This document shows, in pieces, positions 359-35,542 of a stretch of 35,542 nt of DNA (its first letter is position 1; each line of letters starts with the position of its first letter). Under the pieces are notes generated by a model that had not been told where the DNA came from, made no database searches, and saw only the letters and a list, made by a program, of their open reading frames with translations. The stretch lies in IMG/VR virus record IMGVR_UViG_3300043395_000271, positions 1-35,542 of that record. The stretch is one strand, 5' to 3'. The DNA comes from a virus. The position numbers and the translations under genes are program-made.

Positions 359-651
359 ACTACCGCAACTCCAAGCTCACCGAGGTCGTGCGCCAGCTAC
401 CCTGCCAGCAGTGCGGCATCCAAGATGGCACGGTGGTGGCCGCGCACTCAAACCAGCTGCGTGACGGAAAGGGCAAAGGCATCAAGGCCCACGATTACAG
501 GATCGCAGCCTTATGTTACCGATGCCATGCAGACCTGGATCAGGGCAGCAAGATGAGCAAGGAGGAGCGTAGAGATGTATGGGAAGAGGCCCACCGGGGG
601 ACTATCGGTGAGCTCTTCTATCGCGGTCTTATTGACGTTGTAAAGCCTTGA
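355..651 (+). CDS. YbcO/DUF1364-like putative nuclease (HNH-like)
   Basis: A 98-residue protein. The pattern is a CxxC pair near the N-terminus (CQQC, residues 17-20), then AAHSNQ with a candidate catalytic His (about residue 31), then a second pair with His (CYRCHADLD, residues 53-61). This arrangement resembles the YbcO/DUF1364 putative nucleases of lambdoid prophages, which have an HNH-like metal-finger fold; assignment is by motif layout. The start is TTG at 355-357, overlapping the upstream stop as TTGA, with a purine-rich ribosome-binding stretch (AGAAAGAAGG) just upstream. The gene is convergent with the giant - strand gene and their 3' ends overlap by 23 bp (629-651). Possible roles are recombination-junction or DNA-repair nuclease. 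Confidence 0.7.
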   Translation: MNYRNSKLTEVVRQLPCQQCGIQDGTVVAAHSNQLRDGKGKGIKAHDYRIAALCYRCHADLDQGSKMSKEERRDVWEEAHRGTIGELFYRGLIDVVKP

Positions 652-3600: not shown

Positions 3601-6600
3601 CCATCAGCTTCTCGGCATTGACAGCCCAGTACTCAGACGGGTTGATGTACTGGTAGTAATCGTAGCTTGGCATCAAGCCCATGGCATTTTTATATGCCTC
3701 GATCGACGGGTTCTCAAAGAACTCAAGGATCGCCTGGAAGTAAGCCCGGGCCTTGGGAGACTTCTCTTTCTTGATCGCTTTACCCAGCTTGTCTGCCCAA
3801 TCCATGATCAGGTCTGCCGCAGCATCAGCAGTCATCATCTGCTCAAGGCCGTGGGTGATCTCGTGGCGGATGGTCACAGAATCTTGGACGCCGTTGGTTC
3901 CCTTATATAGACGGACCAAGCGAGCCAGCGAGAAGAACTGACCAGCTGCATTGCTGTCTGCCGGCTGTTGTTTTACAGACAGGCTCAGCCCTTCAAGGAC
4001 GAAGGGGAACTTCTCGTACATCGTCTTGATGGCGGCGTACACGTCATCGCTGATGTTGCCTTCGTTCCACTCTTTAGTGGCCCGGGCAAAGAAGTTCTTG
4101 GCGTCTGTGCGCTTGACCTTGCCTGCAGCGATATTGTCCTTGAGCTGGCTAGCAACATCATCAATCGTATTGATTGCCTCTTGCTCATTCAAGCCGGCTT
4201 CACCCTTCTTGAACTTACGCATGATCGAGCCACGCTTCTGACGCAGGCTCTGGTATCTACGGATCAACGTCTCGCGGTCAGCAACAAAGTTACTCGTGGT
4301 ATCCAGGCTCTCACGCTCAACATCAGGCTGGACGTTAGCCAGAGGAATCTTGGGAGCAAACATCTCCCGAGCTTCATCCTTATGGTTAGAAGCAACTAGG
4401 GTCTCACCCCGGTCAGCCAACAGGTACTGGATAGCTTCGTTGGCTTTGTCCTGGCTATAGACCGTTGCGCGCATGATCTGGCCAGACTTGTACAAGTCAC
4501 CAGTAATGTCGGTCAGGCCCTTGTCCAGATAGAAAGAACCGCCCTCACGCTTTGAGCTGGGCGTGATGAAGCGGTACTCAGTCCCACCCATGTAGGTGAT
4601 CTTGAGGTTGCCATCAGGTGTCTTGACTTCAGCGTTACGGCCAAATGTGTTGAAGAAGTCCATTACCGCAGCAAGGTTCTTCAGGCGCACATCTGCGTTC
4701 TTCTGAGCTTTCTCAAAGTCAAACGTGCGGGGCATCAAGATACCCTGAGCCGTGGTGCCATCATCCTTGGTATAGGTGATGATCTGGCCCATGTTGTTGA
4801 CAGCAGCAAACCCAGCCAGGATGTTGCCGGTCACCATCCAGCGCTTCTCACGACGCACAGTTGCACCCTTGTCGAACAGATCCAGCATGGGGATGTATTC
4901 GAACTTGTCGGTCTCTTGGTTGAACCAAGGCGTCTCAGTCTCTCGCTTCAGCTGGTACACGCTACCAATCTGGGAGAACGTCATCGAGATGGACTTGGCA
5001 TCCCCGTCAGCCAGGGCAATCGTCATCTTCCAGTCAGAGCCGGCCGCAGGGTTCTTGGTCTTCTGCTTGTTCTGGATGTCGGTCACAACGCCCTTGACCA
5101 GCATGCCCTTAGAGTGCTTAACCACCACAGGAGTGCCAATCGGGAACTCGGTCAGGACCGTCTTGATATGGGTGTACTGGGCGTTGTTTTGGCTTTTGAA
5201 GTTTTCAATCTTGACGCGATCAGGTTCCTTCTCTGCCTCCATTTTCTCAACAGCGGCATTAACATAAGCCTTGTGGCGAACGCTTAATTCGGATTTTTTG
5301 TTTCCTGAACCTGAAATAAGATTTTCGTCAACCTGACGCTCGACCTCTTCTTTGGAATAAGGCTTGACCGTGCGCTTAACGTCCACCTTTTCCATGATGG
5401 CGGGCCTGGCAAAGACAGACGCATCACCCTTGTCCTCGGTGATGGCAGCAGACGCAAGGGTCTTGGCGTCCAGGTCAACAGCCTTGGCTTCCAGCTTGTT
5501 GGTGCCCATGCTGTCTTCGCGCTCGATCAGATCGTTGTAGCGCTCAACCAAATCCTTATAAATCTCTTCTTGCTGTTTAATCGACAGGATTGGGATATAC
5601 CCAGTTAGCTTGCGAATATCTTCTTCGCCGGCCTCGGACGGATCCTCTGCAATCTCCATAATCTTCTTGCCGCCCAGGGCTTCATAAACCTCTGGGTTGT
5701 CACGCAGGTATTCCTGGGCAACCTGACCACCATACTCGTTCATGAAGTCAACAGCGCCTTCAGCCGTCACAGCGGACTTGCGTGAAGCCGTGGTGTTGGC
5801 GTTCAGGCTAGCCATCTTCTTGAGCAGGATGGCGGCAGGGCGCATCTCAGCAGGGATGTCAGCCATCATCTGAGAGTACGCAGGCGGGATTACCTGGCCA
5901 GTACGGTGAACACGGCCCAGCATCTGCATGTGGGTGTCGATGTTTACCTCTGGTTGAACAATGATCATGTGACGCTTACGCTGATCCTTGAACTTGCTAG
6001 AGGCGTGCAACGACAGTCCGGTAGAACCAGCTTGGTTCAGGATAATTACGTCAACTGCGCCGCTGTTAAAGTTTTTGACAGCCTTAACACGTTGCTTGAT
6101 GTTGGCAGATCGGCTAGTCAGAATGGGACGGCCACTCTCGTAGTTCAGGGTCATAGTGCGACCCGTGATTTCTTCCGTCTTATAGCCTGCCTTACGCAGC
6201 TCAGCGTGCATGTAGTCGATCGGAGACATGGGTGCAGAACCAAAACCAGCGTTCTCAATGAACTTTTGAATATCATTGAATTGCTTGGTCAATTCAGGCC
6301 CAAGGTCGGCGTCCGTCAAACGATACTCTTCACGTTGTCCGTTCGGGCGCTTGATTGTGACAATCCGTTGTTTCTCAAGGTAACGGTTGTACAGATCCTT
6401 GAATGACAGCTCAACGGCATCGCCAACGTTCAAGTCCATATCATCAGCATAGCTCTTCAAGAAAGAGCCCATGGTGTTAGATACGGTCATGACAACCTTC
6501 TCGCCAGCCTTCAATCTTTCGATAGCGTGACGTACAGAGTCCTGCGCCTTCAAAGACAGCAACATCTGGTTGATCAGATTGTGCATGGTTGAACCAAAGT

Positions 6601-9600
6601 TTGCACTCTGCACCTTGGTCTTTTCGCCTTCTATGGCCAGCTTGGCACCTTGCTTGTCAAACTCTTTTTGTAAGCCTTTGACAACTACTTCCTTGGCGCG
6701 AGAGAAGGCTAGGATGTCACGCATAGACGTAGCCATGTTTTCGGCTGTGGCTTTGTCTACGCTGGTTTCCTGTGTGTTGTACGAGACACCTGCGAACGTG
6801 CGCTCGCGGCGGATGTACTGGCCAACCTGAGTCAGCATACGGGCCACGGTCTGCTGCATTGGAATGCCGCCAGACTTGATGGCTTCTGCCAGATCAGAGA
6901 TCTTATCCACAGCCAGACTCATGTCCGTGCTGGAGTAAAGGTCCATCACGTCAGGACGTTTGGCATACGTAGCCGAGGAGAAGAATGTGCCGAATGCTTT
7001 ACGGACCAAGTTACGAACAAAGGATGCGCGCCCGGTCACCAGGCTTTCACCCGCTTTGGCCTTCTCTCTTTGTTCTTTGGTTCGAGCCTGGGTCTCACCA
7101 GCACCGCCAGCGTTGTGGCTCTCGTCAAAGATCATGTAGTTGCCAGTGGCAAACTGATTGATAAATCTCTGACGCTCGGTCTCTTTGCCTTTAACCGTTT
7201 GTAACTGGGTATACGTAGTGAAAACTACTTTGTAATCACCCAGGCTATCGTTTTGCTGCATCTTCTTGAGAACAGCATCCATCTCTGCACCGCCAGTTTT
7301 TGGAGGTCTGAGAGTTAAGTTGTTCTCAACAATCTCCCCATTAACCTCTCGCAAAAGGGTATAGGGAATCGTTTCGTCATTGTTCGTAATCAGGATATTG
7401 GGCTTAGCTGTATCCAGGCCAAGCTCTTTGGTCATCCCGATATCATCCAAGTCCCGGATCATGTCCGAGTACAGGTTGGGCTTCTCGGTTACAAAGAACG
7501 GAATCTTGTCGTTGATCAGCGCGTAACGGATCATCCCAGCCACAACACGGCCCTTACCCACGCCAGTCTGGTCGCCAATGATGAAGCCTTTGCCGGCCTC
7601 TGCGTTGTAGATGGCCAGGGCTAGAGCATCAACCTGCTCAGCAGAGAACAACACCCGAACGGTCTCAGGATCCATTTCCAGAGACTCAGCAACGTAGTTA
7701 TCCAGGTCTCCGACCGAGCTCTCAATCTTGGCTAGAGAGTTCTCGATCGATTCGGCCATGGCCTTGGGAACCAGGGTTCCAACAGAGCTGGCTTTAGAGT
7801 GGGGATAGTAAGCAACCTGGTTTTCCGTTTCGGTCTCCAGGCCACGGCGCTCTGCTAGGCCAGATCCGACACGTTCACCTGAGACAACGCTAACTCCACC
7901 CAGCTTGGGAAGTCCACGTCCTTCAGCGCCTGCTTCGCCGGCTCGCTTGGCCCGCTCACCTGCGCCGGCCACTGGTTCTCCCTTTGCTCCACGCTCAGAT
8001 ACGTCAGCAGGTTTAGGTTGTACTTCACCAGCGCCTCGCCCACTTGGTTCGCGTTGTCCACGCTCGGTAGGTCTAGCCTCCGACACGCCTCGTTCGCCGC
8101 CTCCAGCGGGTTCTCTTCCTTCAGTGCTAGGTTCGCCACTCGGTCGCTCAGCGCCTCGACCCACTGCTTCTCGCTCAGCTTCCCGCTCGGCACTAACACC
8201 GACGTCAGCTCCGGCGGTGCCACGATCTTCTCGGGATACCATGGGTTCATTTAGCTTCTCCTTCAGTTGTTCGTATGTGGTGATGAGTTCCGGCAGGTCA
8301 GCTGCAGGCAGATCGCGGGATGACTTGCCAACCCCATCAATCACGATCACATCAACGGGATAGGTGGTGCCCTGCTTGGCGTACATGTTGCCGCCGGCAG
8401 TAAAGTGATCCACGACGTTGTACAGGTTGTACAGCTCGTAATAGAAGTCACGCTTGGCACGGCCTCTATAACCCTCGCGGCGTCCCTCTTCGGTTGTGGC
8501 TTGGACACCGCCAACAATCAAGACAGCACGGCCGTCTTCCTTCATCCCAACCAGGGACTTCAGGACAATGTCGTGGTCGATGTTGCTGATCTCACCAGCC
8601 TTGCCAAACGGGGGGTTGGCAATCACAACATCAAAGGCGTTGTTTTCAATGTCCATCTCCAGAGCATTACCCTGGGTAATGTCTGCGCCAGGCATGATGG
8701 ATTTCAAAGCCTCAAAGCGACCCTTGTCCAGCTCGTTGGCTGTAACTTTGTCCGGGTTAGCCGCAATCAACAGCATGCCGTTGCCTGCAGTGGGCTCGAG
8801 TACGCTGGTTTTGTTGGTGATGCCGGCCAGCTCAGACGCCACATAGGCCAGGGGGGCGGGCGTGGAGTAAGCCTGATTGGCTACGCTGGTTGAGCTGCGA
8901 ACAGACAGGTTGGGCTGGCGATCATACAGGTTTACCAACTGGTCATAAATGTCTGCAGGATTCTTGCCGTCTTTGATAATCTGACGAGCGGCAATAACTA
9001 TTCCCGCTTCAATGGCTTCGTCAGCCTGCTTGGCGGTTGTTGTGCCAGGACGAATGTAGATGTCAAACTTATTAGTCAGGAATGAACGAGCGGCATTGAT
9101 ATTGCCAAAATCACGACCAGACATGAACCATTCAGCAATGGCTTCGGAGGCTTTTAGTTTGTTGTCTGGGTTTTCAAACGACCACGTTTCGCCAGCCTCT
9201 TCCTTTAGTTCTTCCATCGACTCAACTTCGATGACTTCTTTCTTGGAGCTAGCACCCTGATCCTGATACTTGCCGGCCATGCCGATGTAGGCACCCTGCA
9301 GGTGATCTAGAGTGATCTGGTCTGCAGCTTCGTCACCCAGCTTGGAACGGATCGTGTCCATCACAAACCGGGCAGCTTCCTTAAACTTGATCTTTCCAAG
9401 GCGGAAAGCTGCATCCATAAGCCGGGTCAGGATCGGCATGAGCTTTTGCTCGTCCTCGGGGACGATGTTCATGCGACCAGGCTTGGTCAAAAGCATGGAC
9501 AGATCACCCAGGGCGTCTTCCAGGTCTTGCTTGGCCTTGGCTTTTTCGTCGGCTTCAGTAGGCTTGACCTCAGGAGCTTCAGGCTCTACTGCTTTGGGAG

Positions 9601-18666: not shown

Positions 18667-20055
18667 TTACTGCGTCAAATCGTAGAAAGAGATAGATCCA
18701 ACTCCATCCCCTGTTGTTGCGCCAGACACCGTGCGTACAGCAAGCGTATAGATATCGCTCACCCCAGCCAAAGACACCCCCAGCTGCAGATCCCAGTTAT
18801 AAGACAATGTGGACGACGTGTTAATTGTGCCCCCGCTACCTGACGATGTCACGTAGTCTGTCTGAGCAATCGTGCCTATGTTGCTAATAGCCGTGGCTGC
18901 AACATCGTATTCCACATTGCTGTCAGATGGGACAGTAGCTGCCCAGGTTGCCCCGGTCAAGGTAGGGTTCTTCAACAAAACCACTTCGTAGTTCTGGCTG
19001 GTCGTGGGGAGAAACTGCGTTCTGTTTGGCAAGACCACCGCCCCGGTTCTCCCAGATGCCAGCCGGATAGACACAATTGGGTAGAACGTAGCTGCGGTAT
19101 TGATAGTCGTAAAGATTGTGGTGCGTCGCGCTACATGGTCTATAGACGTAGCCTCAAACCCACCCTCAGATACAACAGAGCAACAGATCTGGGTCAGGGT
19201 TGCCGCCAAAGCTGACGTCGATGTAATCTCATACCGAACCGGCAAAATGGCCGTGGTCATGTAGACCGTGGTTCCATAGACGTTTGCAGTGTTAAACGTG
19301 TGGCAGACGATATATTGGCCGTTAATGATGAACCCACAACGCACCGAGCCCACGCCCAACCACTCAAAGTCCATCCACAGAATTTGCGGGTGAGTCAGAT
19401 CCAGGGTCAGGCCAGATGCTCCCGTGCCGTCCAAAGGATCTCCGTTCCAATCAGCTTGGTTGACCGTCCTGGCATCACTTGCCGATCCGCTTGTGTAAGA
19501 ACGCAAAACAAAGCTGTTGACCCCATCTAGCTTTTGGAAGAAAACGCCGTTCTGGGTATTGAAATATCCAACTCTTTGGGTCAGGTTGACGCTGGTACTG
19601 CTATCCATTTGGAACGTGGCAAGCACCAACAACCCTTTGCCGGGCTGGTATGGGAAACTACGGTAGGACTGACGCACCACAGAACCAACGCCACCGGCCG
19701 TCACGCTCATGCTGACGCTGGCTTGGTTTGTATTAAACGTAGTTGATCCTGTGCCGGTCGTCGCGCTGTCAAACTGGTTATCAGCTGCGTAACGGTTTTG
19801 ACTGTCAAACAGGGTATAGGGCTGGCTAACCCGCTGGCGACCAAACGCATCCAGGGCTGTAGGCGGGAATGAGATTGGTACTTCTGTATTGGACGCCACA
19901 AGCTGCCCCACGATCTTATTTAACTGGTTAAAGTACAGGCGCAGGACGTTATTGAGCTGTTCCTGATACCGAGAGTCATACTGCCCTGGAGCCAACGGCA
20001 GGTTAGGCGGGGTAACTTGGCTGAGCGCATACTCTGACGTAACAATCAGGGTCAT
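18667..20055 (-). CDS. Putative virion structural protein (tail/spike-associated, beta-rich)
   Basis: A 462-residue protein. The N-terminus has a proline-rich strap followed by RYQEQLNNVLRLYFNQLNK (about residues 29-47), a helix motif I recall at the start of many small aquatic-phage structural proteins. The rest is Ser/Thr/Gly-rich and beta-like, with no catalytic motif. ATG 20053-20055 overlaps the upstream endonuclease stop as ATGA, and its Shine-Dalgarno (GGGGT, 20061-20065) lies inside the endonuclease's last codons. Before the endonuclease arrived it would have followed the 786-aa tail gene directly, which supports a tail role. Confidence 0.72.
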   Translation of the reverse strand: MTLIVTSEYALSQVTPPNLPLAPGQYDSRYQEQLNNVLRLYFNQLNKIVGQLVASNTEVPISFPPTALDAFGRQRVSQPYTLFDSQNRYAADNQFDSATTGTGSTTFNTNQASVSMSVTAGGVGSVVRQSYRSFPYQPGKGLLVLATFQMDSSTSVNLTQRVGYFNTQNGVFFQKLDGVNSFVLRSYTSGSASDARTVNQADWNGDPLDGTGASGLTLDLTHPQILWMDFEWLGVGSVRCGFIINGQYIVCHTFNTANVYGTTVYMTTAILPVRYEITSTSALAATLTQICCSVVSEGGFEATSIDHVARRTTIFTTINTAATFYPIVSIRLASGRTGAVVLPNRTQFLPTTSQNYEVVLLKNPTLTGATWAATVPSDSNVEYDVAATAISNIGTIAQTDYVTSSGSGGTINTSSTLSYNWDLQLGVSLAGVSDIYTLAVRTVSGATTGDGVGSISFYDLTQ

Positions 20056-20672
20056 GAATTACCCCAATGGAGCCGTTCAAGCTCTTTGCGGTTGAAGATT
20101 GCCTCTTCCAGAGTGGCGGCAACCTTGGAATAGAACTTTTTCTTTTGCACGGTAATCTCAGCATACCACCCGTTGTTACGAAAACGAACCCCTGTATGGC
20201 CGGTTTTGCTGGAGGCCCGTACTCTTACATTTCTAGCCTGAGCAGGCAAAGACGCCCAGCGACAATTTCCGGGTTCGTAGTTTCCATACGGATCAATCCG
20301 ATCAAGCGTCTGCTTGCCCGTTGGCTCGCCTATATCCTGGGCAAATACTGAATACTCATGCCATGCCGGGCAAACGGTTACACCTGCCGCGCCATAGCGT
20401 TTGTAGTCCTTGTCGTTTGGGTTGTAGCACCGGCGCATCATGGCTCGCCAGGTGTTATACGATCCCTTTCCAGTGCCGCCATGCTTAAAGTTTGGGACAA
20501 TACACCCACAGGACGTGGTATTGCCAGTAACCAAAGAACCGGATGGAACCGTTATCTCGTTACCGCAGTCACAGTGGCATCGCCATAAAACTTTTTTTAG
20601 AGAGTTGCGGCCAGCAACCTCCAAGGCAGTGAGCCGTCCAAACCGAGATCCAGTGTGGTCAATTCGTTTCAT
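20052..20672 (-). CDS. HNH/AP2 homing endonuclease (free-standing)
   Basis: A 206-residue protein counted from ATG 20670-20672. Residues 32-57 form a zinc ribbon (CxCxC then CGC); 123-148 carry the HNH-type signature LDRIDPYGNYEPGNCRW; and 158-191 form an AP2-like DNA-binding domain (GHTGVRFRNNGWYAEI). This start has a strong ribosome-binding site (GAAAGGG, 6-base spacing). A longer frame from ATG 20720 exists but would begin inside a consensus sigma-70 promoter, so the shorter form is preferred. The gene sits between two structural genes, with ATGA overlap downstream. It probably cleaves a site at this junction in phages that lack it. All motif residues look intact, so it is likely active. 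Confidence 0.88.
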   Translation of the reverse strand: MKRIDHTGSRFGRLTALEVAGRNSLKKVLWRCHCDCGNEITVPSGSLVTGNTTSCGCIVPNFKHGGTGKGSYNTWRAMMRRCYNPNDKDYKRYGAAGVTVCPAWHEYSVFAQDIGEPTGKQTLDRIDPYGNYEPGNCRWASLPAQARNVRVRASSKTGHTGVRFRNNGWYAEITVQKKKFYSKVAATLEEAIFNRKELERLHWGNS

Positions 20673-20697
20673 ACAAAGCCCTTTCAATAGAGCCTGT

Positions 20698-20727
20698 AGT
20701 ATACACTGCCATCTTTTCATAGGTCAA
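20698..20727 (-). promoter_or_regulatory. Sigma-70-type promoter for the HNH/AP2 endonuclease
   Basis: On the - strand, TTGACC (20722-20727) and TATACT (20698-20703) are separated by 18 bases, each one mismatch from the -35 and -10 consensus. Transcription would start near 20691, giving a leader of about 19 bases that carries GAAAGGG and leads to ATG 20672. The -35 hexamer overlaps the stop codon of the upstream 786-aa gene. Confidence 0.65.
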
Positions 20728-27617: not shown

Positions 27618-28409
27618 TTAAAGTCCTTGCGTTAAATACACATGCGCTTTGCGCTGCTTGATCAACAAAACCATTTTCTTGCTGACCCCAAATTTGTGCG
27701 CTGTTTTTAACAGCGAGTCTTGATTGTAGAAAATATCCCGTACCGTGTCTTCTGATAATCTGGCATTGGGTCCGCGCTTACCCTTCTTAGACTCGGCCAG
27801 CTTCTTGAGAGCTTCTGTTCGATGCAAATCTAAGATAGCCCGCGCCTTTGCTTTATGCTCTTCTGTTGCAGGTGCCTTGTTATTTCCCTGTCCAGATTTG
27901 ATTGGCGGATACTGTTCATTAAGATGCGTCCAAGTGTCTCCTCGCCGCGCATCACGGATTGTGTCACGAGAACATTTAATCCCAAACCTATCTACAACTT
28001 CATCCAGTAGAGCAGAATTTGAAACGCCCTGTCTTGCGGGATCTCTAATAAACGCAATCACGTCATTGGTCAGTACAGATGGCAACTGCTCCCCATACAA
28101 CTGATCCACACGATCCCGACCTTCCCCTCCTGAGGTCAAGTTGTATCCTTTGTTCAGGCTTGCATGGGTCTCATACTGGGCAATAAAGCGCTTCTCCGCC
28201 TCTTGCAAATCATCAAAGGACGTGGCGTCGTAGATCTTCTCAACCGCAAAATTCTCTAGGCCATACTTCCTCATAGCCTTGTACAGGCGCTTCTGGCTTC
28301 CTGTATTGGCTGCACTACGATGCTCCCGCCAACGCTTTTCCAACGAGCAAACCGTGATACCTATGTACCGGTGCCCGTTGACGTTGTTGGTGATCATGTA
28401 AGCCAGCAT
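27618..28409 (-). CDS. GIY-YIG homing endonuclease (free-standing)
   Basis: A 263-residue protein. Residues 3-17 carry a GIY-YIG variant (AYMITNNVNGHRYIG); 25-30 are KRWREH with the catalytic Arg; E72 lies in the EAEKRFIAQYE helix and N90 in KGYNLTSGG. The linker and C-terminus hold helix-turn-helix-like DNA-binding segments (SEDTVRDIFYNQ, LLKTAHKFGVSKKM). The first motif reads AYMI where GIY is usual, a common relaxation. The start ATG 28407-28409 has AAGGAT upstream. It sits exactly between the repeat protein and the fibre gene. Base composition looks AT-richer than its neighbours, consistent with transfer. Confidence 0.88.
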   Translation of the reverse strand: MLAYMITNNVNGHRYIGITVCSLEKRWREHRSAANTGSQKRLYKAMRKYGLENFAVEKIYDATSFDDLQEAEKRFIAQYETHASLNKGYNLTSGGEGRDRVDQLYGEQLPSVLTNDVIAFIRDPARQGVSNSALLDEVVDRFGIKCSRDTIRDARRGDTWTHLNEQYPPIKSGQGNNKAPATEEHKAKARAILDLHRTEALKKLAESKKGKRGPNARLSEDTVRDIFYNQDSLLKTAHKFGVSKKMVLLIKQRKAHVYLTQGL

Positions 28410-28416
28410 GGGATCC

Positions 28417-29568
28417 TTACGAGTTCATGTTGATATTTTGCCAGTTAGGAGCCTGTGTGTCATCCACATTAGCCCACCCCGGCGTTTGAGTTGTCCCCAC
28501 AGCCGTCCACCCCGGCGACTGCGTATCCGTGACCTGGGTCCAGCCAGGCGTCTGTTCGTTATTGATATCCCCCCAGTTGGCCGTCTGGGTGTCGTCAATT
28601 GGGTTCCAGAGATACTCGGCGTAAATGTAGTCTGCCGCCGTCGCCGCCTCCGATATAGCAGCCATGTAGTTCACAGCCGCCACAAACTGAGCTGCCGCCG
28701 TGGCCGTCTCCAAAATCTCAACCAATATAGTCAAGAAGGCAGAGTCAGAATCCGTGGCCGTGGCCGTCTCGCTCACCGAGCTTTGGACACTTACATTGGC
28801 AGATACCGTATCTGTGGCCGTGGCGGTCTCAAGGATAGCCCCAATAAACTCAAACTGGGAGGCCGTCTGGTCTGTCGCGGTGGCTGTTTCAGACACGCTC
28901 CTGGAGTATGTTGGGCTTGCACTGACTGTATCAGAGCCAGTTGCTGTATCTGAAGTTGTGGCCGGGTATGTGGGGGTTGATGAGTCCGTATCAGACCCAG
29001 ACGCGCTTTCACTTACAGCCACCCCAAAATTGGCATTGGCGGATATTGCGTCAGACCCAGTTGCCGTCTCAGATACAGAGGCAAAAACCGAGACATTGGA
29101 GTCAATTGAGTCCGCCCCAGTAGCTGTCTCACTAACCGAAGATCCAAACGCCGCCTGGGCCTCTATGCTGTCAGATCCTGTGGCAGTCTCAGAGATAACC
29201 GTGGAGTAGGTAGGTGTGGCCTCTATTGAGTCTGACCCGCTGGCGGTCTCGTCTACTGCCACTCCAAAGTTCTGGGCAGCTGAGATGGCGTCGGATCCTG
29301 TGGCTGTTTCTGAGACTGCAGACTGGAAGTTGACGTTTCCGGCTATTGAATCTGCGCCTGTTGCCGTCTCAGCAATATTAGAACCAAACGTAGCCAGGGC
29401 CGAGTCGGTGTCGGCTCCCGTGGCGGTCTCAGAGATGCTAGAGGAAAAGGTGGGATTAGAAGATACGCTATCAGCGCCCGTGGCAGTCTCGGCCAGGTCA
29501 CGGTCATAAACCGAATCACCCCAGCCAGCTTGACCCCATGTACCGGACCCCCATCCGCCTTCTGCCAT
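28417..29568 (-). CDS. Tandem-repeat virion protein (15 x 20 aa plus 5 x 11 aa)
   Basis: A 383-residue protein from ATG 29566-29568 (AAGGAT upstream; a GTG one codon earlier is possible). The N-terminus is Trp/Gly-rich (GGWGSGTWGQAGWG), a start I recall in aquatic-phage surface proteins. Residues 27-326 are fifteen 20-residue units starting ETATG(A/S)D; residues 326-380 are five 11-residue Trp units (for example DTQSPGWTAVG). Composition is very poor in Lys and Cys and rich in Ser/Thr/Ala/Asp. It is likely an extended fibre or decoration protein with beta-type repeats. Neighbours are structural; no enzyme motif is seen. Confidence 0.8.
   Translation of the reverse strand: MAEGGWGSGTWGQAGWGDSVYDRDLAETATGADSVSSNPTFSSSISETATGADTDSALATFGSNIAETATGADSIAGNVNFQSAVSETATGSDAISAAQNFGVAVDETASGSDSIEATPTYSTVISETATGSDSIEAQAAFGSSVSETATGADSIDSNVSVFASVSETATGSDAISANANFGVAVSESASGSDTDSSTPTYPATTSDTATGSDTVSASPTYSRSVSETATATDQTASQFEFIGAILETATATDTVSANVSVQSSVSETATATDSDSAFLTILVEILETATAAAQFVAAVNYMAAISEAATAADYIYAEYLWNPIDDTQTANWGDINNEQTPGWTQVTDTQSPGWTAVGTTQTPGWANVDDTQAPNWQNINMNS
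28429..28593. repeat. Five tandem 33-bp coding repeats (11-aa Trp units)
   Basis: Five consecutive 11-residue units with Gln at 3 and Trp at 7: DTQTANWGDIN, NEQTPGWTQVT, DTQSPGWTAVG, TTQTPGWANVD, DTQAPNWQNIN. They follow the 20-residue array directly and share one residue with its end. Confidence 0.9.
28591..29490. repeat. Fifteen tandem 60-bp coding repeats (20-aa units)
   Basis: Fifteen consecutive units of exactly 20 codons, consensus ETATG(A/S)D(S/A)I followed by a variable segment with an aromatic near position 15 and a hydrophobic-Ser ending. Early units keep TG(A/S)D, later units drift to TATD then TAAA, so there is a gradient along the array. Not a CRISPR: there are no constant repeats with unique spacers. 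Confidence 0.92.
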
Positions 29569-29577
29569 CACTCATCC

Positions 29578-30157: not shown

Positions 30158-30571
30158 TTAGTTAGATGAACGTATTAAAGCCGACGTTGCCGTGTTCTGC
30201 GGCATCGTGACCGTGAAGTTGGTGGATGTCTTGTCAGATCCAAAGTCGAGCACGGCAATTGATTTGTTGCCCTGGGTAGAGTTATAGATCAGCGCGCATC
30301 GTGCCGTTACACTGGCATTGAACGCAACATTGTTAAAGTTGACGTAGACGGTATAGCCAGACGTATTGATAGTCACGCCCGTCATAACCACGCCGCCAGC
30401 TACATAGCCAGTACCAGTCACCTCGTTGGTGGAAGAATACACGGTCGTGTCTGCGTTCAAATCCGCATTGGCCGTGTACAAGGCCATCTTCAAGGTGTTC
30501 GACGTCAGATTGTGCACCCCCTCGTAGAGCTCGGCCTTGAAGCTGGTGGTTTGGGTTTGGACTATGCTCAT
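30158..30571 (-). CDS. Small conserved virion structural protein
   Basis: A 137-residue beta-rich protein: SFKAELYEGVHNLTSNTLKMALYTANADL near the start, then NEVTGTGYVAGGVVMTG, and a hydrophobic strand pair (CALIYNSTQGNKSIAVLDFG). The pattern 'FKxELxxGxHxF...KxALYTxxA.L...YssTnEV.GtGY..GG' is common in small phage structural proteins. ATG 30569-30571 overlaps the endonuclease stop as ATGA, and the Shine-Dalgarno GAGG (30579-30582) lies inside the endonuclease coding sequence. Confidence 0.75.
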   Translation of the reverse strand: MSIVQTQTTSFKAELYEGVHNLTSNTLKMALYTANADLNADTTVYSSTNEVTGTGYVAGGVVMTGVTINTSGYTVYVNFNNVAFNASVTARCALIYNSTQGNKSIAVLDFGSDKTSTNFTVTMPQNTATSALIRSSN

Positions 30572-31197
30572 GCCGTAACCTCAAAAGCGTTTAACTTGCG
30601 CACGTTCTCTACCCCAGGAATTACTTGCAGATTGTAGGGTGTGTGAAGACCGGACACAAGTTTGCCCTGAAGAGGGACGATATGATCTACATGCCACTGA
30701 AAGCCAAACAGTTTTGTGCGCAGCGCCGCTAATTCATATGCCTGCTCAATCATCCAATGGTCATCGACAGTAAGCCAAGACGGAGTTCTATGGATTTTTG
30801 CAAGGCGGCGTTTAATAGTATTGGCTACCACCAGACCGGGATTTTTTGCCTTTGATTTCTTGGTATATGAATTAACCAGATCTCTATTAGCATCTCTCCA
30901 CTTCTTTATGGTAGCTGCAATTTTTTCTTTGTTGGCCGCACGATACACAGAATCTTGTTTATTTTTCTTTGCGCGCAATTCTGGCGTGCTGATTACTCGA
31001 TTGTTACTCTTTGCGGCATGGGCTTTAGTCCGCTCAGGATTAGCTTTGCGAGCCTGCTGCAATCTCTCAGAGGCACAAGCTGCGCATGATCCAGACACGT
31101 AGCGCTCCCCTTCGAGATGTGCATGCAGCTGGCACACACTCCCAAAGTAGCGCGGCATACCTGCCGCTTTTGCTTGTTGTCTGGTAAGTTTTATCAT
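30568..31197 (-). CDS. HNH endonuclease (free-standing, probable homing enzyme)
   Basis: A 209-residue basic protein. An N-terminal Cys/His finger (C22, H25/H27, C38, C41) is followed by a long Lys/Ala-rich helical linker. A C-terminal HNH core follows (WHVDHIVPL at about 168-176, then SGLHTPYNLQVIPGVENVRKLN with the third motif). Catalytic His and Asp/Asn positions are present. The gene overlaps both neighbours by ATGA (4 bp each side). The central part looks AT-richer than its neighbours. It is distinct in type from the other two endonucleases here. Confidence 0.87.
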   Translation of the reverse strand: MIKLTRQQAKAAGMPRYFGSVCQLHAHLEGERYVSGSCAACASERLQQARKANPERTKAHAAKSNNRVISTPELRAKKNKQDSVYRAANKEKIAATIKKWRDANRDLVNSYTKKSKAKNPGLVVANTIKRRLAKIHRTPSWLTVDDHWMIEQAYELAALRTKLFGFQWHVDHIVPLQGKLVSGLHTPYNLQVIPGVENVRKLNAFEVTA

Positions 31198-31853
31198 GAC
31201 ACCGGAACCCGTACCTGGCCGTCTCTGTATGCGTCGGCCCTCTGCTTCCCGTCGCCAAGGTTCTTCAAGAGAGCAATCGCCTGCACGTACCGTTCACTGT
31301 ACAACTTGACCATGTCCCCTTCTGCCTTGGTATAGGTAGCGGCTTCCATCAAGGTACCGTACAGCAGCGCAGAATCAAAGTTGTCGCCCAGCCACGTGCG
31401 CCCATCCGCCGCGTCCACAATAGACTCGGGCAGGTAGAAGTAATGCAGCTCAACCTCGTAAGACAGATCAGGCGTGGGGCCCAGAATAAAGCTCAGCTCA
31501 TCCTCGTTATCTGACCGGGGGCCAAAGATCGCGTAGTGCTTGGGCTTTCCACGGTACGCCGCTGCCGTGCTTGGATAGGCTTCACGGATGAAGTTCACGT
31601 CCTTGTTGAGCAGGTACAGATACTCACTATCAGAGATAACGGCAATCGAATACACCGACAGGAAGTCAGCGGGGCACTGGAGATACTTATTCCCTACGGT
31701 CGCGGTACCCGTCACGTTCTTGCGCAGCGACGCCAGCTGCACCGTGTTGTAGATGCGCTGCTCCGCCTGCTTGATGAAGGTGTCAATGTTACTCGTCGGG
31801 AACGAGTTCTCGATGTAATCATTAACCTGGGTAACCAGCTCGTCGTAGGTCAT
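31194..31853 (-). CDS. Head-tail connector/adaptor-like structural protein
   Basis: A 219-residue protein. The N-terminal helices (TYDELVTQVNDYIENSF, DTFIKQAEQRIYNTVQLASLRK) and the following beta region (YLQCPADFLSVYSIAVI, KPKHYAIFGPRSD, ELSFILGPTP) match a conserved adaptor-type protein that I recall from podoviruses of aquatic origin, in the place of P22 gp4 or T7 gp11-type connectors. ATG 31851-31853 has GAGG upstream. Its stop is overlapped by the HNH gene. A structural role at the neck is inferred. Confidence 0.72.
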   Translation of the reverse strand: MTYDELVTQVNDYIENSFPTSNIDTFIKQAEQRIYNTVQLASLRKNVTGTATVGNKYLQCPADFLSVYSIAVISDSEYLYLLNKDVNFIREAYPSTAAAYRGKPKHYAIFGPRSDNEDELSFILGPTPDLSYEVELHYFYLPESIVDAADGRTWLGDNFDSALLYGTLMEAATYTKAEGDMVKLYSERYVQAIALLKNLGDGKQRADAYRDGQVRVPVS

Positions 31854-31860
31854 ATTAACC

Positions 31861-32127
31861 TCAAGCCATCGGGCCTCGTGCCATCACACCTTTGGTAGCC
31901 GCACCAGTGCCACGGATCTTGATGCCATCCGTCTTGATGGGCTCGTCGCCAGCAGACTTACTAATCGCACCAACGGATACATCATACGTATCCAGTTTGC
32001 TGCGATTGGGCTTCTTGCCAGGGTTTGCTTCCATTTTCACGGCCTTGCCGCTCATGGTGTGCGGTTCAGCATAGACGTTGGCCTGGCCAACTTCCTTACC
32101 CATAACTTTTTTACTGAACTTGGCCAT
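31861..32127 (-). CDS. Small basic protein ending in a TDGIKIRGTGAATKG motif
   Basis: An 88-residue protein from ATG 32125-32127, which has a perfect GGAGG 5 bases upstream; a longer frame (M four codons earlier) is less likely. It is Lys/Gly-rich, with a C-terminal block (TDGIKIRGTGAATKGVMARG) I recall from many uncultured phages. This block partly resembles the DGIAQRGKT motif of other ORFs in the cluster. No metal or membrane motif. A virion-associated or DNA-binding role is possible. Confidence 0.7.
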   Translation of the reverse strand: MAKFSKKVMGKEVGQANVYAEPHTMSGKAVKMEANPGKKPNRSKLDTYDVSVGAISKSAGDEPIKTDGIKIRGTGAATKGVMARGPMA

Positions 32128-32128
32128 A

Positions 32129-32320
32129 TTAGCCTCCACGGGTCGAGGATTTCTGGTTCATGGCACGGGCCAGGTTGCGTCCGTACTTCTTCATGTTCGC
32201 AGAGGTAACACCACCCTTGGCCAGCTTGGTCATGGGCTTGCCAGGATGCATCTTGGCTTCGTGCTTATGCACAGCAGATGCAATCATCTTCTTGTCTTGT
32301 TTCAGGTCTGCTTTGTCCAT
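32129..32320 (-). CDS. Small basic AKGG-motif protein
   Basis: A 63-residue protein: a helical, His/Lys-rich N-terminus (KQDKKMIASAVHKHEAKMH), then PGKPMTKLAKGG and MKKYGRNLARAMNQKS. The pattern KHExxMHPGKPxTKLAKGG recurs in aquatic phages. AGGAG precedes the ATG. It is strongly basic, which suits binding to nucleic acid or an acidic capsid surface. Unknown function. Confidence 0.7.
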   Translation of the reverse strand: MDKADLKQDKKMIASAVHKHEAKMHPGKPMTKLAKGGVTSANMKKYGRNLARAMNQKSSTRGG

Positions 32321-32331
32321 TTCTGGCTCCT

Positions 32332-32715
32332 TTAAGATATTGACACTGTACCAACACTTGTCGTCGCCACCAAGTAGTTTTGCGTGAGAGCGACGTCAAA
32401 AAAGCTAGATCCACCCACCGGGGCCCACCCCCACTGGATATCGCGAGAACCACCAGACGGGAAACCATTGGCATCCAATCCAGCAGTGTAGTACGTCGTA
32501 TCCGGTCTTGGCTGGCGCACGGCCTGCGGATCGTCAACTGGGTACATTCCAAGCTGCAACTGCGGCTGATCAGGATCCCAACACTCCGGGCAGACTTTCA
32601 ACTGGTACAGCTTGGTCTTGATGACCTCAAACTTGAGCTGCTTGAGCTTGAAACGAAAGCCACAGCGATCGCACTGGGAGATCGCAAATTTGCCGGATGA
32701 GAACCTCTCTCCCAT
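32332..32715 (-). CDS. Zinc-ribbon structural-module protein
   Basis: A 127-residue protein. Two Cys pairs (CDRC at residues 15-18 and CPEC at 42-45), separated by a basic beta segment (FRFKLKQLKFEVIKTKLYQ), form a probable zinc ribbon. The C-terminal half is polar and beta-like (AGLDANGFPSGGSRDIQWGW), ending in a Thr/Ser-Val run. ATG 32713-32715 overlaps the connector-like gene's stop as TAATG, so the two are coupled. A minor structural or assembly role is likely. Confidence 0.72.
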   Translation of the reverse strand: MGERFSSGKFAISQCDRCGFRFKLKQLKFEVIKTKLYQLKVCPECWDPDQPQLQLGMYPVDDPQAVRQPRPDTTYYTAGLDANGFPSGGSRDIQWGWAPVGGSSFFDVALTQNYLVATTSVGTVSIS

Positions 32716-33650
32716 TACGGAGTACTCCCACCAATAAACTGCTGACGGGGCACAAACCGGATCGGCGCTTTCTCGTGATCTTCACCAGCGGCCAACATAA
32801 ACTGCTCGTCATAAGCAGCTTTTAGCATCTCCACACGGGGCATCAGCTCGGGCTGCTTCATGGCAATGTAGTACGCCAACCCCGCCGCAACGGCCGGCAG
32901 GAAGCGGAAGTTCATGTCCCCGGTCTGCACACCAGCTCCAGCATCCTGGATCCGGCGCATGCGCCAGTACACAAACTGGTAAGGGGTAGAACTGTCAGGG
33001 GTAGGCCACAACGTAATAGCGGGTAGCTGAGGCACAAACACCTCGGTCTGGTCTGTATGAGATGCCGCCGTCGTATTGTTCTGGCCACGGAAACACCCAC
33101 CAAGCGAGTTGCCGTCGATGTAGCCGTAGTAGATGATCTCTGAGTCCAGCTTGATGTAGCCAGAGCCCGCAAGGCCCACCGTGGACGTCAGGTTGATCGT
33201 GGTTACGGTTGAGTTAATGTTCCCATCCAGCTTTAGGGTAGTCGGATTGGTTTCCCCAGACAGACGCTGGATCCAAACCTGGATAGGCCGGGCTTGGGTA
33301 ATTTTGTTCGGGATCGTCGCATAGGTCGAAACACTAATGCGAGAGATGGTCAGGTCGGCCTGCGTTGACGAGACATTGGCCCCAGTGCGGATCACATGGT
33401 CCAGCAGGTCAATCGTGTCCAGCGGCAGCGGGTAGGTGTTCAGACCCGGCACCAAGTCAATCGCGCCTTCCTCGATAGTCCACATGTTCAGGCCACGGTT
33501 AGCCCACTCAATGGTCATCAGGTTCATAGACCGGCGGGCAGTCCGCAAGTCATAACCGGAACGCATTTCACGACCGGCACGCTCCCATGCTTCCTCGGCT
33601 AATTCCGTGAAGTCCAGGTTAAATAGGGTTGTGCCAGTCGTGTAGCTCAT
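32715..33650 (-). CDS. Head-tail connector / DNA-stabilisation-like structural protein
   Basis: A 311-residue protein. The N-terminal helices (FTELAEEAWERAGRE, then RRSMNLMTIEWANRGLNMWTIEEG) are a pattern I associate with connector or stabilisation proteins of short-tailed phages. A beta-rich middle follows (TLKLDGNINSTVTTINL, IKLDSEIIYYGYIDG), and a C-terminal helical part (FRFLPAVAAGLAYYIAMKQPE). The ATG overlaps the next upstream stop as ATGA (33647-33650). Together with the 219-aa protein it probably closes the portal after packaging. Confidence 0.75.
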   Translation of the reverse strand: MSYTTGTTLFNLDFTELAEEAWERAGREMRSGYDLRTARRSMNLMTIEWANRGLNMWTIEEGAIDLVPGLNTYPLPLDTIDLLDHVIRTGANVSSTQADLTISRISVSTYATIPNKITQARPIQVWIQRLSGETNPTTLKLDGNINSTVTTINLTSTVGLAGSGYIKLDSEIIYYGYIDGNSLGGCFRGQNNTTAASHTDQTEVFVPQLPAITLWPTPDSSTPYQFVYWRMRRIQDAGAGVQTGDMNFRFLPAVAAGLAYYIAMKQPELMPRVEMLKAAYDEQFMLAAGEDHEKAPIRFVPRQQFIGGSTP

Positions 33651-33901
33651 TTCATTGCAGCCCGGATATTGTCAATCATGTTGGGGTAGGGCCGGCCAGC
33701 AGCTTTGGCCGCAGCCTTAGCTTTTGCCTTCTTGGCAGAGCTCAGCTTCTTGGGAGCACCCAGGCTTTCAGGACGCGGCTTGCTCCAGACCTCACCACCC
33801 TTGGCATACTGGGTGAAGTCAGTGTTATCCCGGCGAGCTTTACGCTTTCCGCTGGGCATCTTAGAGGGGGCAATGTCCCCCATGCCGCGACTGGCCATCA
33901 T
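33647..33901 (-). CDS. Small basic YAKGG-motif protein
   Basis: An 84-residue protein, very rich in Lys/Ala: MGDIAPSKMPSGKRKARRD, then YAKGGEVW and an Ala/Lys block (KKAKAKAAAKAAGRPYPNMID). Similar small ORFs occur in uncultured aquatic phages. Ribosome site GGGGA lies 6 bases before ATG 33899-33901; the next codon is also ATG. The Lys/Ala tract resembles histone-tail-like nucleic acid binders. Function unknown. Confidence 0.7.
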   Translation of the reverse strand: MMASRGMGDIAPSKMPSGKRKARRDNTDFTQYAKGGEVWSKPRPESLGAPKKLSSAKKAKAKAAAKAAGRPYPNMIDNIRAAMK

Positions 33902-33902
33902 G

Positions 33903-34142
33903 TTATTTCCCCTTGGCGTAACCGCCGCCGCACATCACCATCGTGCCACGGGTCTTGCCACGCTGAGCAATACCATCTGCACGACGAGAAGCGGAAGAGA
34001 TAGATCCACCGCCAGCCTTCTTTACAGGCTTTTTGGGGCGAGAAGAACCCATGTCAGGTTCCTGCGGGACGGGAATACCAGAGCCTTCCGTCCAAACGGA
34101 ATCACCCTTGGTCTTTTTCTTTTCCAGTTCTTCGTCGTACAT
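33903..34142 (-). CDS. Small basic protein with DGIAQRGKT motif
   Basis: A 79-residue protein with a charged N-terminus (YDEELEKKKTKGDSVW), a linker, and a C-terminal block: KKAGGGSISSASRRADG, then IAQRGKTRGTM and CGGGYAKGK. The C-terminal block is almost identical to that of the 34696-35070 ORF. AAGGAG precedes the ATG. No known function. Confidence 0.72.
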   Translation of the reverse strand: MYDEELEKKKTKGDSVWTEGSGIPVPQEPDMGSSRPKKPVKKAGGGSISSASRRADGIAQRGKTRGTMVMCGGGYAKGK

Positions 34143-34152
34143 GGTCAGCTCC

Positions 34153-34458
34153 TTAGCACTTGCCGCCGCGCTTCATGCCTTTGGCAGAGCCAGCCATCTT
34201 GATGACTTTGCCCTGGGTCTTGCCCTTGGTAGCAACGCCATCGCGGCTGGGAGCAGCCGTCTTAACCTTGCCCATGGGAGTCGTCGGGGTTTTTTTCTGA
34301 GTAGCCATAGTTTCACCACCTTTTGAGAATTTGCGGCCTTTGTCCGCCTTGCTGAACTCTCGCCCCACGGACTGTGGGACGCCTGCTTTCTTCGCAAATG
34401 CCGGGTTATGCGCCACGGCTTCCATGAAGTTATGTTGTTTCTTGCTAACCGAGGGCAC
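34153..34458 (-). CDS. Small basic protein, GTG start, KGG and DGVATKGKT motifs
   Basis: A 101-residue protein from GTG 34456-34458, which has GGAG 7 bases upstream; this gives the (M)PSVSKKQHNFMEAVAHNPAFAKK start I recall from related phage ORFs, whereas the longer frame to 34542 overlaps the next gene much more. An N-terminal helical part, FSKGGETMATQKK in the middle, then APSRDGVATKGKTQGKVI and MKRGGKC at the end. It overlaps the membrane/coiled-coil gene by 14 bp. An internal ATG at the middle motif could be a second start. Confidence 0.68.
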   Translation of the reverse strand: MPSVSKKQHNFMEAVAHNPAFAKKAGVPQSVGREFSKADKGRKFSKGGETMATQKKTPTTPMGKVKTAAPSRDGVATKGKTQGKVIKMAGSAKGMKRGGKC

Positions 34459-34693
34459 TTTTTTGCTCCCTGATAAACGCATCAATTTTGGTTTCCAGGC
34501 GGTCGATCCGGTCCAGAACCCGATTGATGTCGTGGTGGACATCCACCTTCGTCACATATTCCTTGGCGACCTCTTCCCTTGTCCGGTTCAGGAGAATCTG
34601 TAGCCGGGAGATTTCCTCCGACTTTTCCTTCAGATTCCAACCTAGCAACCCGAGCAATGTAGTCAGCAAGGCGTTCCACAACATCATTTCCAT
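34445..34693 (-). CDS. Small membrane-anchored coiled-coil protein
   Basis: An 82-residue protein: a short hydrophobic N-terminus (LWNALLTTLLGLLGW, residues 5-19) followed by a charged coiled coil (ISRLQILLNRTREEVAKEYV, VHHDINRVLDRIDRLETKID). The pattern ILLNRTREExAKEYVTKxxVHxDINRVLDR is common in uncultured phages, probably an inner-membrane or virion-core anchored coil. No clear Shine-Dalgarno; M3 or M4 are alternative starts. Function unknown. Confidence 0.7.
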   Translation of the reverse strand: MEMMLWNALLTTLLGLLGWNLKEKSEEISRLQILLNRTREEVAKEYVTKVDVHHDINRVLDRIDRLETKIDAFIREQKSALG

Positions 34694-34695
34694 GA

Positions 34696-35070
34696 TCAGA
34701 TCATCCGACCTTTAGTCTTTCCACGCTGGGCAATACCGTCAGCACGCTTGGAAGCAGATCCAACCTTGCCGCCCTTTTTCATGCCTGCAGCAGACTTGAT
34801 CTTGTTAATGATGCCGTCGTCTTCCGGGGGCTGAACTCCACGGGCTTCACGCTTGTACTGGTCGCCCAGCTCGCTCACTTCTTGAGCCAGGCGAGCTGCC
34901 TCTTTACGAGCTGCAGGTTGGCCGGCAATTGCACGGAAGTTGGCTTCTTGCATGTTCTCGCGGGAAGGACGTGCATTGGCCAATGCCGCCATCTCTTCCA
35001 GATCAGCAGCACGATCACGGGCCTTAGGACCATAACGCTTCAGGTTCTCTAGGTACTTAGGATTAGGCAT
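34696..35070 (-). CDS. Helical protein with C-terminal DGIAQRGKT motif
   Basis: A 124-residue protein from ATG 35068-35070 (GAGG upstream). Residues 1-100 are strongly helical and charged (YLENLKRYGPKARDRAADLEEMAALAN, ARKEAARLAQEVSELGDQYK). The C-terminus carries MKKGGKVGSASKRADG followed by IAQRGKTKGRMI, nearly identical to the ending of the 33903-34142 protein. A helical body plus a basic tail suits a capsid-interior or scaffold-like protein, but this is inference. Confidence 0.72.
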   Translation of the reverse strand: MPNPKYLENLKRYGPKARDRAADLEEMAALANARPSRENMQEANFRAIAGQPAARKEAARLAQEVSELGDQYKREARGVQPPEDDGIINKIKSAAGMKKGGKVGSASKRADGIAQRGKTKGRMI

Positions 35071-35078
35071 ATCAGTCC

Positions 35079-35324
35079 TCAACATTTCCAAGCCCGTAGG
35101 CTTTTATTGATCCTTGAATCCGGGTCTTTGGCCGTCTTCTCGGAGGTTAACTTCTTCTTCATCCCTTCCATGCGGGCGCAGAAAGAGTCTCGGCGTTTGC
35201 CGCCTTCCGGCTGGGGAGGTTTCAAGTTCATCCCCTGCTTTTTGGCAGAGGCGCGACCCTTGGCGTTCAAACCACCCTTGGGATTCTTGCCTTCCTTGCG
35301 CTGCCATGCTGGTGACTTAGCCAT
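35079..35324 (-). CDS. DUF6321-like small protein
   Basis: An 81-residue protein from ATG 35322-35324 (the frame can extend to a TTG two codons earlier). It reads AKSPAWQRKEGKNPKGGLNAKGRASAKK, then LKPPQPEGGKRRDSFCARMEGMKKKL and KDPDSRINKSLRAWKC. I recognise this as the DUF6321 family of small phage proteins of unknown function. It overlaps the glycosyltransferase-like gene by 8 bp. Conserved Cys at about 51 and at the C-terminus. Confidence 0.8.
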   Translation of the reverse strand: MAKSPAWQRKEGKNPKGGLNAKGRASAKKQGMNLKPPQPEGGKRRDSFCARMEGMKKKLTSEKTAKDPDSRINKSLRAWKC

Positions 35325-35542
35325 TTGCAACTTTCAGTTTGGGCGTGCAGTATTCTTGAATCAAAGGTTTAAGTGCATCTTCTTCAAAGTTGCGCTCAAA
35401 CTCCTGAGTACCTACATGCGGCAAGCTGATAGTCGGATCCAGAAAAATGGTAAACCCTTCAGCAGTAGCACGGTCGCAGAACAGATAGTCTTCGCCGTAG
35501 TACTTGCCGTTGTACACACCAAAGTCAAAGATGGCGTGTTCT
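35317..35542 (-). CDS. Glycosyltransferase-like protein, C-terminal fragment
   Basis: The frame is open at the right edge (about 74 residues visible). It reads EHAIFDFGVYNGKYYGEDYLFCDRA, then TIFLDPTISLPHVG and EFERNFEEDALKPL. The GEDYLFC(DRA) acidic motif followed by DPxIxLxHVG is the C-terminal part of GT-A-type glycosyltransferases that I recall from phages (glycosyltransferase 2-like or Anp1-like). A GTG at 35515-35517 is inside this block and is not the start. It would glycosylate a virion protein or host sugar; this cannot be decided from the fragment. Confidence 0.7.
   Translation of the reverse strand, partial: EHAIFDFGVYNGKYYGEDYLFCDRATAEGFTIFLDPTISLPHVGTQEFERNFEEDALKPLIQEYCTPKLKVANG

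Follow-up and report, generated by a model that had tools for sequence, protein, structure and literature searches.

Several small basic proteins encoded in the head operon of one virus, represented by IMG/VR record IMGVR_UViG_3300043395_000271 (positions 1 to 35,542, hereafter the window, with late genes on the minus strand), share a short peptide motif, DG(I/V)AxxGKTxG, close to their C-termini. We read this motif as the core of a docking tag that would load variable accessory proteins onto a conserved component of the phage head, and we put the probability of that reading at roughly 45%. The motif is a module of its own: it is anchored at the C-terminus, selected as a peptide, independent of the protein bodies that precede it, and carried by accessory proteins. 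It is restricted to the interval between the capsid and adaptor genes of one capsid lineage of aquatic phages.

The tagged genes of the window

The sequence-only reading had counted four copies of the motif. Three are exact, whereas the fourth (31861-32127) lacks the core and belongs to a separate tail family. Searching with a degenerate DNA pattern gave the same three matches in the window and none in 100 dinucleotide-preserving shuffles. The tagged proteins and their tags are as follows.

34696..35070, minus strand: tagged protein 1, class A, 124 amino acids, with a variable body, a KKGG linker and the C-terminal tag SASKRADGIAQRGKTKGRMI-COOH
34699..34758, minus strand: class A C-terminal tag, the 20 residues preceding the stop codon, with the core DGIAQRGKTKG at 34708-34740
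34153..34458, minus strand: tagged protein 2, GTG start, with the N-terminal module VPSVSKKQHNFMEAVAHNPAFAKKAGVPQSVG, the tag SRDGVATKGKTQG and a basic tail
34210..34242, minus strand: tag core DGVATKGKTQG, class B2, a motif match
33903..34142, minus strand: tagged protein 3, class B1, 79 amino acids, with the tag followed by TMVMCGGGYAKGK
33945..33977, minus strand: tag core DGIAQRGKTRG, class B1, a motif match

The copy at 34708-34740 reads KRADGIAQRGKTKG, followed by RMI and the stop codon, and thus lies 3 amino acids before the C-terminus. The copy at 33945-33977 (RRADGIAQRGKTRG, then TMVMCGGGYAKGK) ends 13 amino acids before the C-terminus, and that at 34210-34242 (SRDGVATKGKTQG, then KVIKMAGSAKGMKRGGKC) ends 18 before it. 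Tagged protein 1 has no Pfam or PHROG family match; in an alignment of its orthologs, residues 100-121 hold most of the invariant columns, and its predicted structure is of low confidence (predicted local distance difference test score, pLDDT, of 58), with tentative helices. Neither Pfam nor PHROG contains a family matching tagged protein 3 above chance. The GTG start of tagged protein 2 is backed by relatives that begin MPS.SKKQH. Its N-terminus has matches in phrog_16759 and at the start of virion structural proteins. The SKKQH-type module found there, SKKQHNFMEAVAHNPAFAKKAGVPQSVG, also opens the PHROGs that carry this label (phrog_22033, 845 amino acids, and phrog_25121) and is, by its sequence, a candidate N-terminal counterpart of the tag.

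Distribution of the motif

With the window proteins as bait, we collected 397 motif copies from 151 viral loci, and in 229 of these copies the motif stands exactly 3 residues before the end of the protein. Because bait loci are gathered by similarity, we also searched 2.9 million viral contigs without bait, using a DNA pattern that covers only the motif core. This unbiased scan returned at least 183 in-frame copies in at least 118 loci. Among the matches listed, every copy lies within 71 amino acids of the C-terminus or belongs to an N-terminal class, apart from one that runs off its contig; 100 copies stop exactly 3 amino acids past the motif, and one head cassette recurs in 117 of the 118 loci, the remaining locus being a 1,061-base fragment. 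All capsid proteins found in these loci share 78-100% identity with the one encoded by G001, the closest complete relative. The same pattern matched seven times in 84,980 prokaryote genomes. Three of these matches are true, on contigs with class A tags, the same cassette and a capsid protein 78-89% identical; the other four are chance matches without the cassette, in line with the number expected (about 4) from a pattern of about 37 bits in that 257-Gb collection by our arithmetic. Together, the unbiased scan and the window shuffles rule out a chance origin of the motif.

A tblastn search of the tag proteins against INPHARED found nothing, a failure of sensitivity, since the cultured Planktothrix phage Pag-Yong1 carries the tag. 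Inspection of capsid relatives revealed it there in a 308-amino-acid protein (UMO75986.1), encoded between genes annotated as 'minor capsid' and 'portal-adaptor', that ends GRDGCAKRGRTKGRFI, with R in place of K. An isolate is therefore available for experiments. No tag was seen in the stretches read of relatives whose capsids are 40-66% identical, among them HTVC023P, HTVC027P, CRP-902, QDWS535 and Caulobacter phage RW. The tag is rare in the DSL-LC04 capsid clade, where we saw no substitute multi-gene C-terminal tag of comparable spread. It occurs in 5 of 54 capsid-sampled loci; several phages whose capsids are 78-83% identical are tag-negative for want of the genes themselves, and one locus (L479) retains a degenerate copy. 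As close relatives do without them, the tagged genes are accessory.

No Pfam family, PHROG family or PDB sequence covers the tag, and neither the motif nor DUF6321, a family encoded beside it, had a match in the literature searched, most subscription papers being outside that search. The earlier suggestion that the system is undescribed thus agrees with the databases and papers covered.

Tag classes and the C-terminal end

Tags were assigned to classes by simple rules. The class A consensus is SxASKRADGIAQRGKT(R/K)G(R/K)(M/I)(V/C)-COOH, and a fuller consensus allows S or G at its start, (S/G)xASKRADGIAQRGKT(K/R)G(R/K)(M/I)(V/C)-COOH and variants. A KKGG or ASGG stretch precedes this C-terminal peptide, the arrangement of a tag behind a flexible linker, and most class A tags end in a hydrophobic residue (V/C/I/L/Y). 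In class B1 the motif is followed by TMVMCGGGMARGKK; class B2 usually stands behind the SKKQH N-terminal module and continues into a basic tail. The N-terminal class comprises about 15 proteins of about 61 amino acids each that carry the tag at the N-terminus (MAYTRSADGIAKKGKTEGKNLGD...). Of 42 pairs, 40 have B2 ahead of B1 in the order of transcription, and the N-terminal class comes after all the others. Tandem tag pairs occur in three loci (L139, L212 and L248).

A strict C-terminal end, with basic residues and then a hydrophobic one, could also be a processing or turnover signal, a peptide recognized by a protease or unfoldase that removes scaffold-like helpers during head maturation; that no equivalent appeared in the other phage groups sampled would agree with this. 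We regard it as improbable. The conserved core lies within the tag and exceeds known C-terminal degrons in length, two classes run 10-30 amino acids past the core, and one class is N-terminal. Within the set scanned, which comprised the head genes and the large late genes, no prohead protease family was recognized.

Selection on the peptide

D, G, G, T and G never change across 563 tags and K and A hardly do, whereas third codon positions vary freely; 534 distinct 33-mers encode 94 peptides. At identical residues, the codon difference is 0.52 within a locus and 0.57 between loci. Codons that differ nearly as much within a locus as between loci indicate selection on the peptide. The same figures bear on whether a mobile or recombining DNA repeat, its peptide functionless, has spread between gene ends. 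Such a module would account for identical ends on different bodies and for gene fusions, but three findings leave it with next to no probability: the 563 tags are written in 534 different 33-base versions, seven positions vary hardly or not at all, and synonymous sites diverge almost as much inside a locus as from one locus to another. Codon diversity likewise contradicts a DNA repeat or gene conversion as the origin of the tag.

The tag contains a Walker A-like string, GxxxxGKT, retained in 557 of 563 tags. We rejected a P-loop nucleoside triphosphatase, as the string sits in a low-confidence tail with no preceding strand and often 3 residues from the C-terminus; the replacement of K by R in some tags weakens this candidate further. 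Phosphate binding by the tag is kept as an idea.

Bodies ahead of the tag

Clustering of 541 bodies gave 160 clusters, 118 of them singletons; the largest, with 238 members, is probably inflated through single linkage over shared low-complexity parts. From their sequences, the bodies are hypervariable and mostly unrelated. Where a locus holds several tags, at least two body clusters are usually represented (154 of 169 loci), and up to six copies occur on different bodies in one locus. Tag identity stays at 0.68-0.71 across bodies that range from 28% to 64% identical and is 0.70 for unrelated bodies in one locus. That many unrelated body clusters end in one motif bears out the proposal of a shared module on different bodies. 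The tag can also be gained by fusion: elsewhere in the lineage it extends the C-terminus of DUF6321 proteins (L247 and L297; a cluster of 12). Ten large tagged bodies yielded no Pfam or PHROG match of note apart from the SKKQH N-terminal module, and a sequence search of the PDB gave nothing useful. Short strings (NYxNEGR, AGAGRG and an N-terminal MKK...GG) recur within otherwise unrelated tagged bodies (L146, L218, L224, L092 and L443), which suggests further shared peptide modules.

Tagged proteins are basic (median whole-protein isoelectric point of 10.0) and their bodies are poor in hydrophobic residues; from this composition and low model confidence, the bodies are probably disordered. Direct binding of DNA is the chief competitor of docking. 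A glycine- and lysine-rich peptide could bind phosphates of the packaged DNA or RNA and, together with the basic bodies, anchor or condense DNA. The basic character of tag and bodies, the near-universal GxxxxGKT string and the placement of small basic proteins within a head operon all suit such a role. We nonetheless consider it unlikely: an acidic D and several other exact positions are invariant, beyond what charge requires, K gives way to R in some tags (the cultured Pag-Yong1 copy included), T is never S in the collected set, and the C-terminal residue is hydrophobic in most class A tags. The surroundings of the motif also appear to lack a P-loop-type strand or helix.

Genomic position

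G001 (61.4 kb) carries a 127-base terminal repeat and is therefore probably complete. Its genes run terminase, portal, GroES-like, putative scaffold, capsid, glycosyltransferase-like, DUF6321, tagged genes and SU10-type adaptor, the portal and scaffold being assigned by position and by relatives; the capsid gene matches Phage_capsid_4 and Mu gpT. A GroES-like co-chaperonin gene between portal and putative scaffold (L157:1321-1719) is found throughout the lineage and in cultured relatives. The window starts within the glycosyltransferase-like gene, so the capsid gene is missing from it. The remaining members of the window's cassette are listed below.

35079..35330, minus strand: DUF6321 protein adjoining the tagged genes (PF19846, E=1.3e-19)
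34445..34693, minus strand: small membrane/coiled-coil protein, an untagged cassette member with weak PHROG matches and a conserved position
33647..33901, minus strand: small basic protein MMASRGMGDIAPSKMPSG..., an untagged cassette member (phrog_34011; position conserved)
32715..33650, minus strand: first SU10-type head-tail adaptor, the downstream border of C-terminal tag genes (PF24175, E=3e-7; synteny)
32129..32320, minus strand: small protein at the position of the N-terminal tag class, with a C-terminal half (YGRNLARAMNQK) similar by eye to proteins of that class; the tag is absent here
31861..32127, minus strand: protein with a different C-terminal tail, TDGIKIRGTGAATKGVMARGPMA, beyond the adaptor gene and without the tag core (the supposed fourth copy)
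31194..31853, minus strand: second SU10-type adaptor (PF24175, E=5.8e-25)

Ten contigs of 58-65 kb, four of which were truncated at 60 kb, contain 25 tags, and each of these falls in the interval from the capsid gene to the second adaptor gene. We then pooled 591 non-redundant copies, four chance matches included, all but about 16 of which are C-terminal. Where a flanking marker is present, 565 of 566 C-terminal tags come after the capsid gene and/or before the first adaptor gene, and all 15 N-terminal tags come after the first adaptor. One further copy, on a contig of a metagenome-assembled genome (L192), lies past the first adaptor. With about two exceptions, C-terminal tags are thus confined to the interval from the major capsid gene to the SU10-type adaptor gene. 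Linkage to head genes in other phages had been set beforehand as one test on which the proposal could fail; it held, and more tightly than mere proximity, the motif lying between capsid and head-tail adaptor.

This position raises the question of whether the tag docks at the neck, binding the portal or the SU10-type adaptor ring with a role in head completion, genome retention or ejection. The tagged genes do end at the adaptor gene, and the N-terminal class falls between the two adaptor genes. However, the adaptor is more divergent than the tag (42-94% identity to that of G001 across tag-bearing genomes), and up to six different bodies per locus would suit a many-site lattice better than a 12-fold ring. 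We find docking at the neck quite unlikely.

Possible function of the tag

A selected, body-independent peptide with a free end, placed behind a flexible linker on accessory proteins of the head operon, is best read as a docking label. In the mechanism that we propose, the tag would bind one conserved head component. The likeliest partner is the lattice of the major capsid protein, on its inner face, or else the prohead while it is filled with scaffold; the neck is our second choice. A structure model of the capsid protein reached a pLDDT of 33, probably owing to a shallow alignment. Through docking, a few basic, disordered proteins, exchangeable for one another, would enter the virion or attach to it; there their bodies may contact DNA and/or be delivered with it. 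We infer the binding nature of the tag, its head-protein receptor and the interior location, as well as a role of the bodies in DNA condensation or against host defence.

Several observations weigh against docking. No protease was recognized among the genes scanned, which leaves no sign of T4-like processing, and linkage to the late head operon would also be expected of proteins acting at the connector or on DNA. In relatives sampled by their capsids (70-87% identity), carriage of the tag is predicted by neither the capsid nor another head gene, so the linkage may reflect lineage, not contact. The searchable papers contained no virion proteomics for a phage with the tag.

If docking holds, a label of head membership would let a large class of small phage proteins that lack annotation be recognized simply by sequence, and would open phage cargo loading to testing beyond T4. 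Hundreds of copies of the tag fall outside Pfam, PHROG and the PDB, except for the N-terminal module of one type, and small 'hypothetical' genes beside a capsid gene can have a common selected function despite unrelated bodies. A bolder version is speculative and, in our judgment, doubtful: an aquatic phage lineage would use a universal, mainly C-terminal cargo label to load changing disordered proteins, many of whose bodies would be injected counter-defence or host-control factors, and the tag could serve to mine these and to load foreign proteins.

Other features of the window

The tail at 31861-32127 belongs to a family, RG(T/A/S)GAATKG followed by 8 amino acids and the stop codon, represented by a single copy in each of 138 loci and attached for the most part to one orthologous body; the spacing of 8 residues before the stop is kept in 130 of the 138. 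Distant kinship of TDGIKIRGTGAATKGVMARGPMA with the tag is possible, although it is no copy of the tag. The C-terminal tail T(T/S)GIKIRGTGAATKGVMARGPMA (window 31861-32127; L056, L059, L077 and L241) also appears on a few unrelated short bodies and may therefore be a second tag.

Other features of note belong to further genes of the minus strand. A 3,872-amino-acid polyvalent protein (629-12247) contains Strawberry-notch-type helicase domains (PF13872, PF13871) and LPD38, together with an NPPF-type methyltransferase stretch seen by eye, and is reminiscent of DarB-like injected proteins. A GIY-YIG protein and two HNH-like proteins (HNH by eye) are encoded at 27618-28409, 20052-20720 and 30568-31197; because G001 has no counterpart of the 30568-31197 gene between its adaptor and the next gene, these look like inserted homing endonucleases. 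A 384-amino-acid protein of ETATG(A/S)DS-type repeats (28417-29571) adjoins tail-fibre-like genes.

Comparison with known systems

The capsid targeting sequence (CTS) of phage T4 is N-terminal and is cleaved off by the gp21 protease. T4 internal proteins form a highly variable set that has only the CTS in common (PMC3012670). Like the CTS on IPI-III and Alt, the tag is a short conserved peptide on several diverse, variable accessory proteins, here encoded by head-cassette genes. Unlike the CTS, it is mostly C-terminal, unrelated in sequence, unaccompanied by a recognized protease among the genes scanned, found on genes beside the capsid gene, and putative as a signal for incorporation.

Encapsulin targeting or cargo-loading peptides are short and mostly C-terminal, recruit cargo to a shell of the HK97 fold, and are N-terminal in some secondary cargo (PMC8346489). 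The tag likewise is mostly C-terminal after a flexible linker, with one N-terminal class. It differs from these peptides in sequence and in its setting, a phage with packaged DNA; its cargo bodies would be disordered and basic rather than enzymes, and its binding is putative.

Within the cassette, DUF6321 (PF19846) proteins are also small and basic, and in some genomes they have acquired the tag. The end conserved among them (RAWNC/RWKC) differs from it, and DUF6321 relatives occur in 523 phage records, whereas the tag is restricted to one capsid lineage. Against the DUF6321 profile, none of the three tagged window proteins scored above the gathering score; only the neighbour at 35079-35330 matches. 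The P1 internal head proteins DarA and Hdf are accessory proteins on the inner capsid surface that contact DNA (PMC12810830). They are specific folded complexes that are not known to have a shared peptide tag, and a sequence relation to the tagged proteins is not expected. By analogy, then, the tag resembles the T4 CTS and the encapsulin peptides in outline and appears to be a member of neither group.

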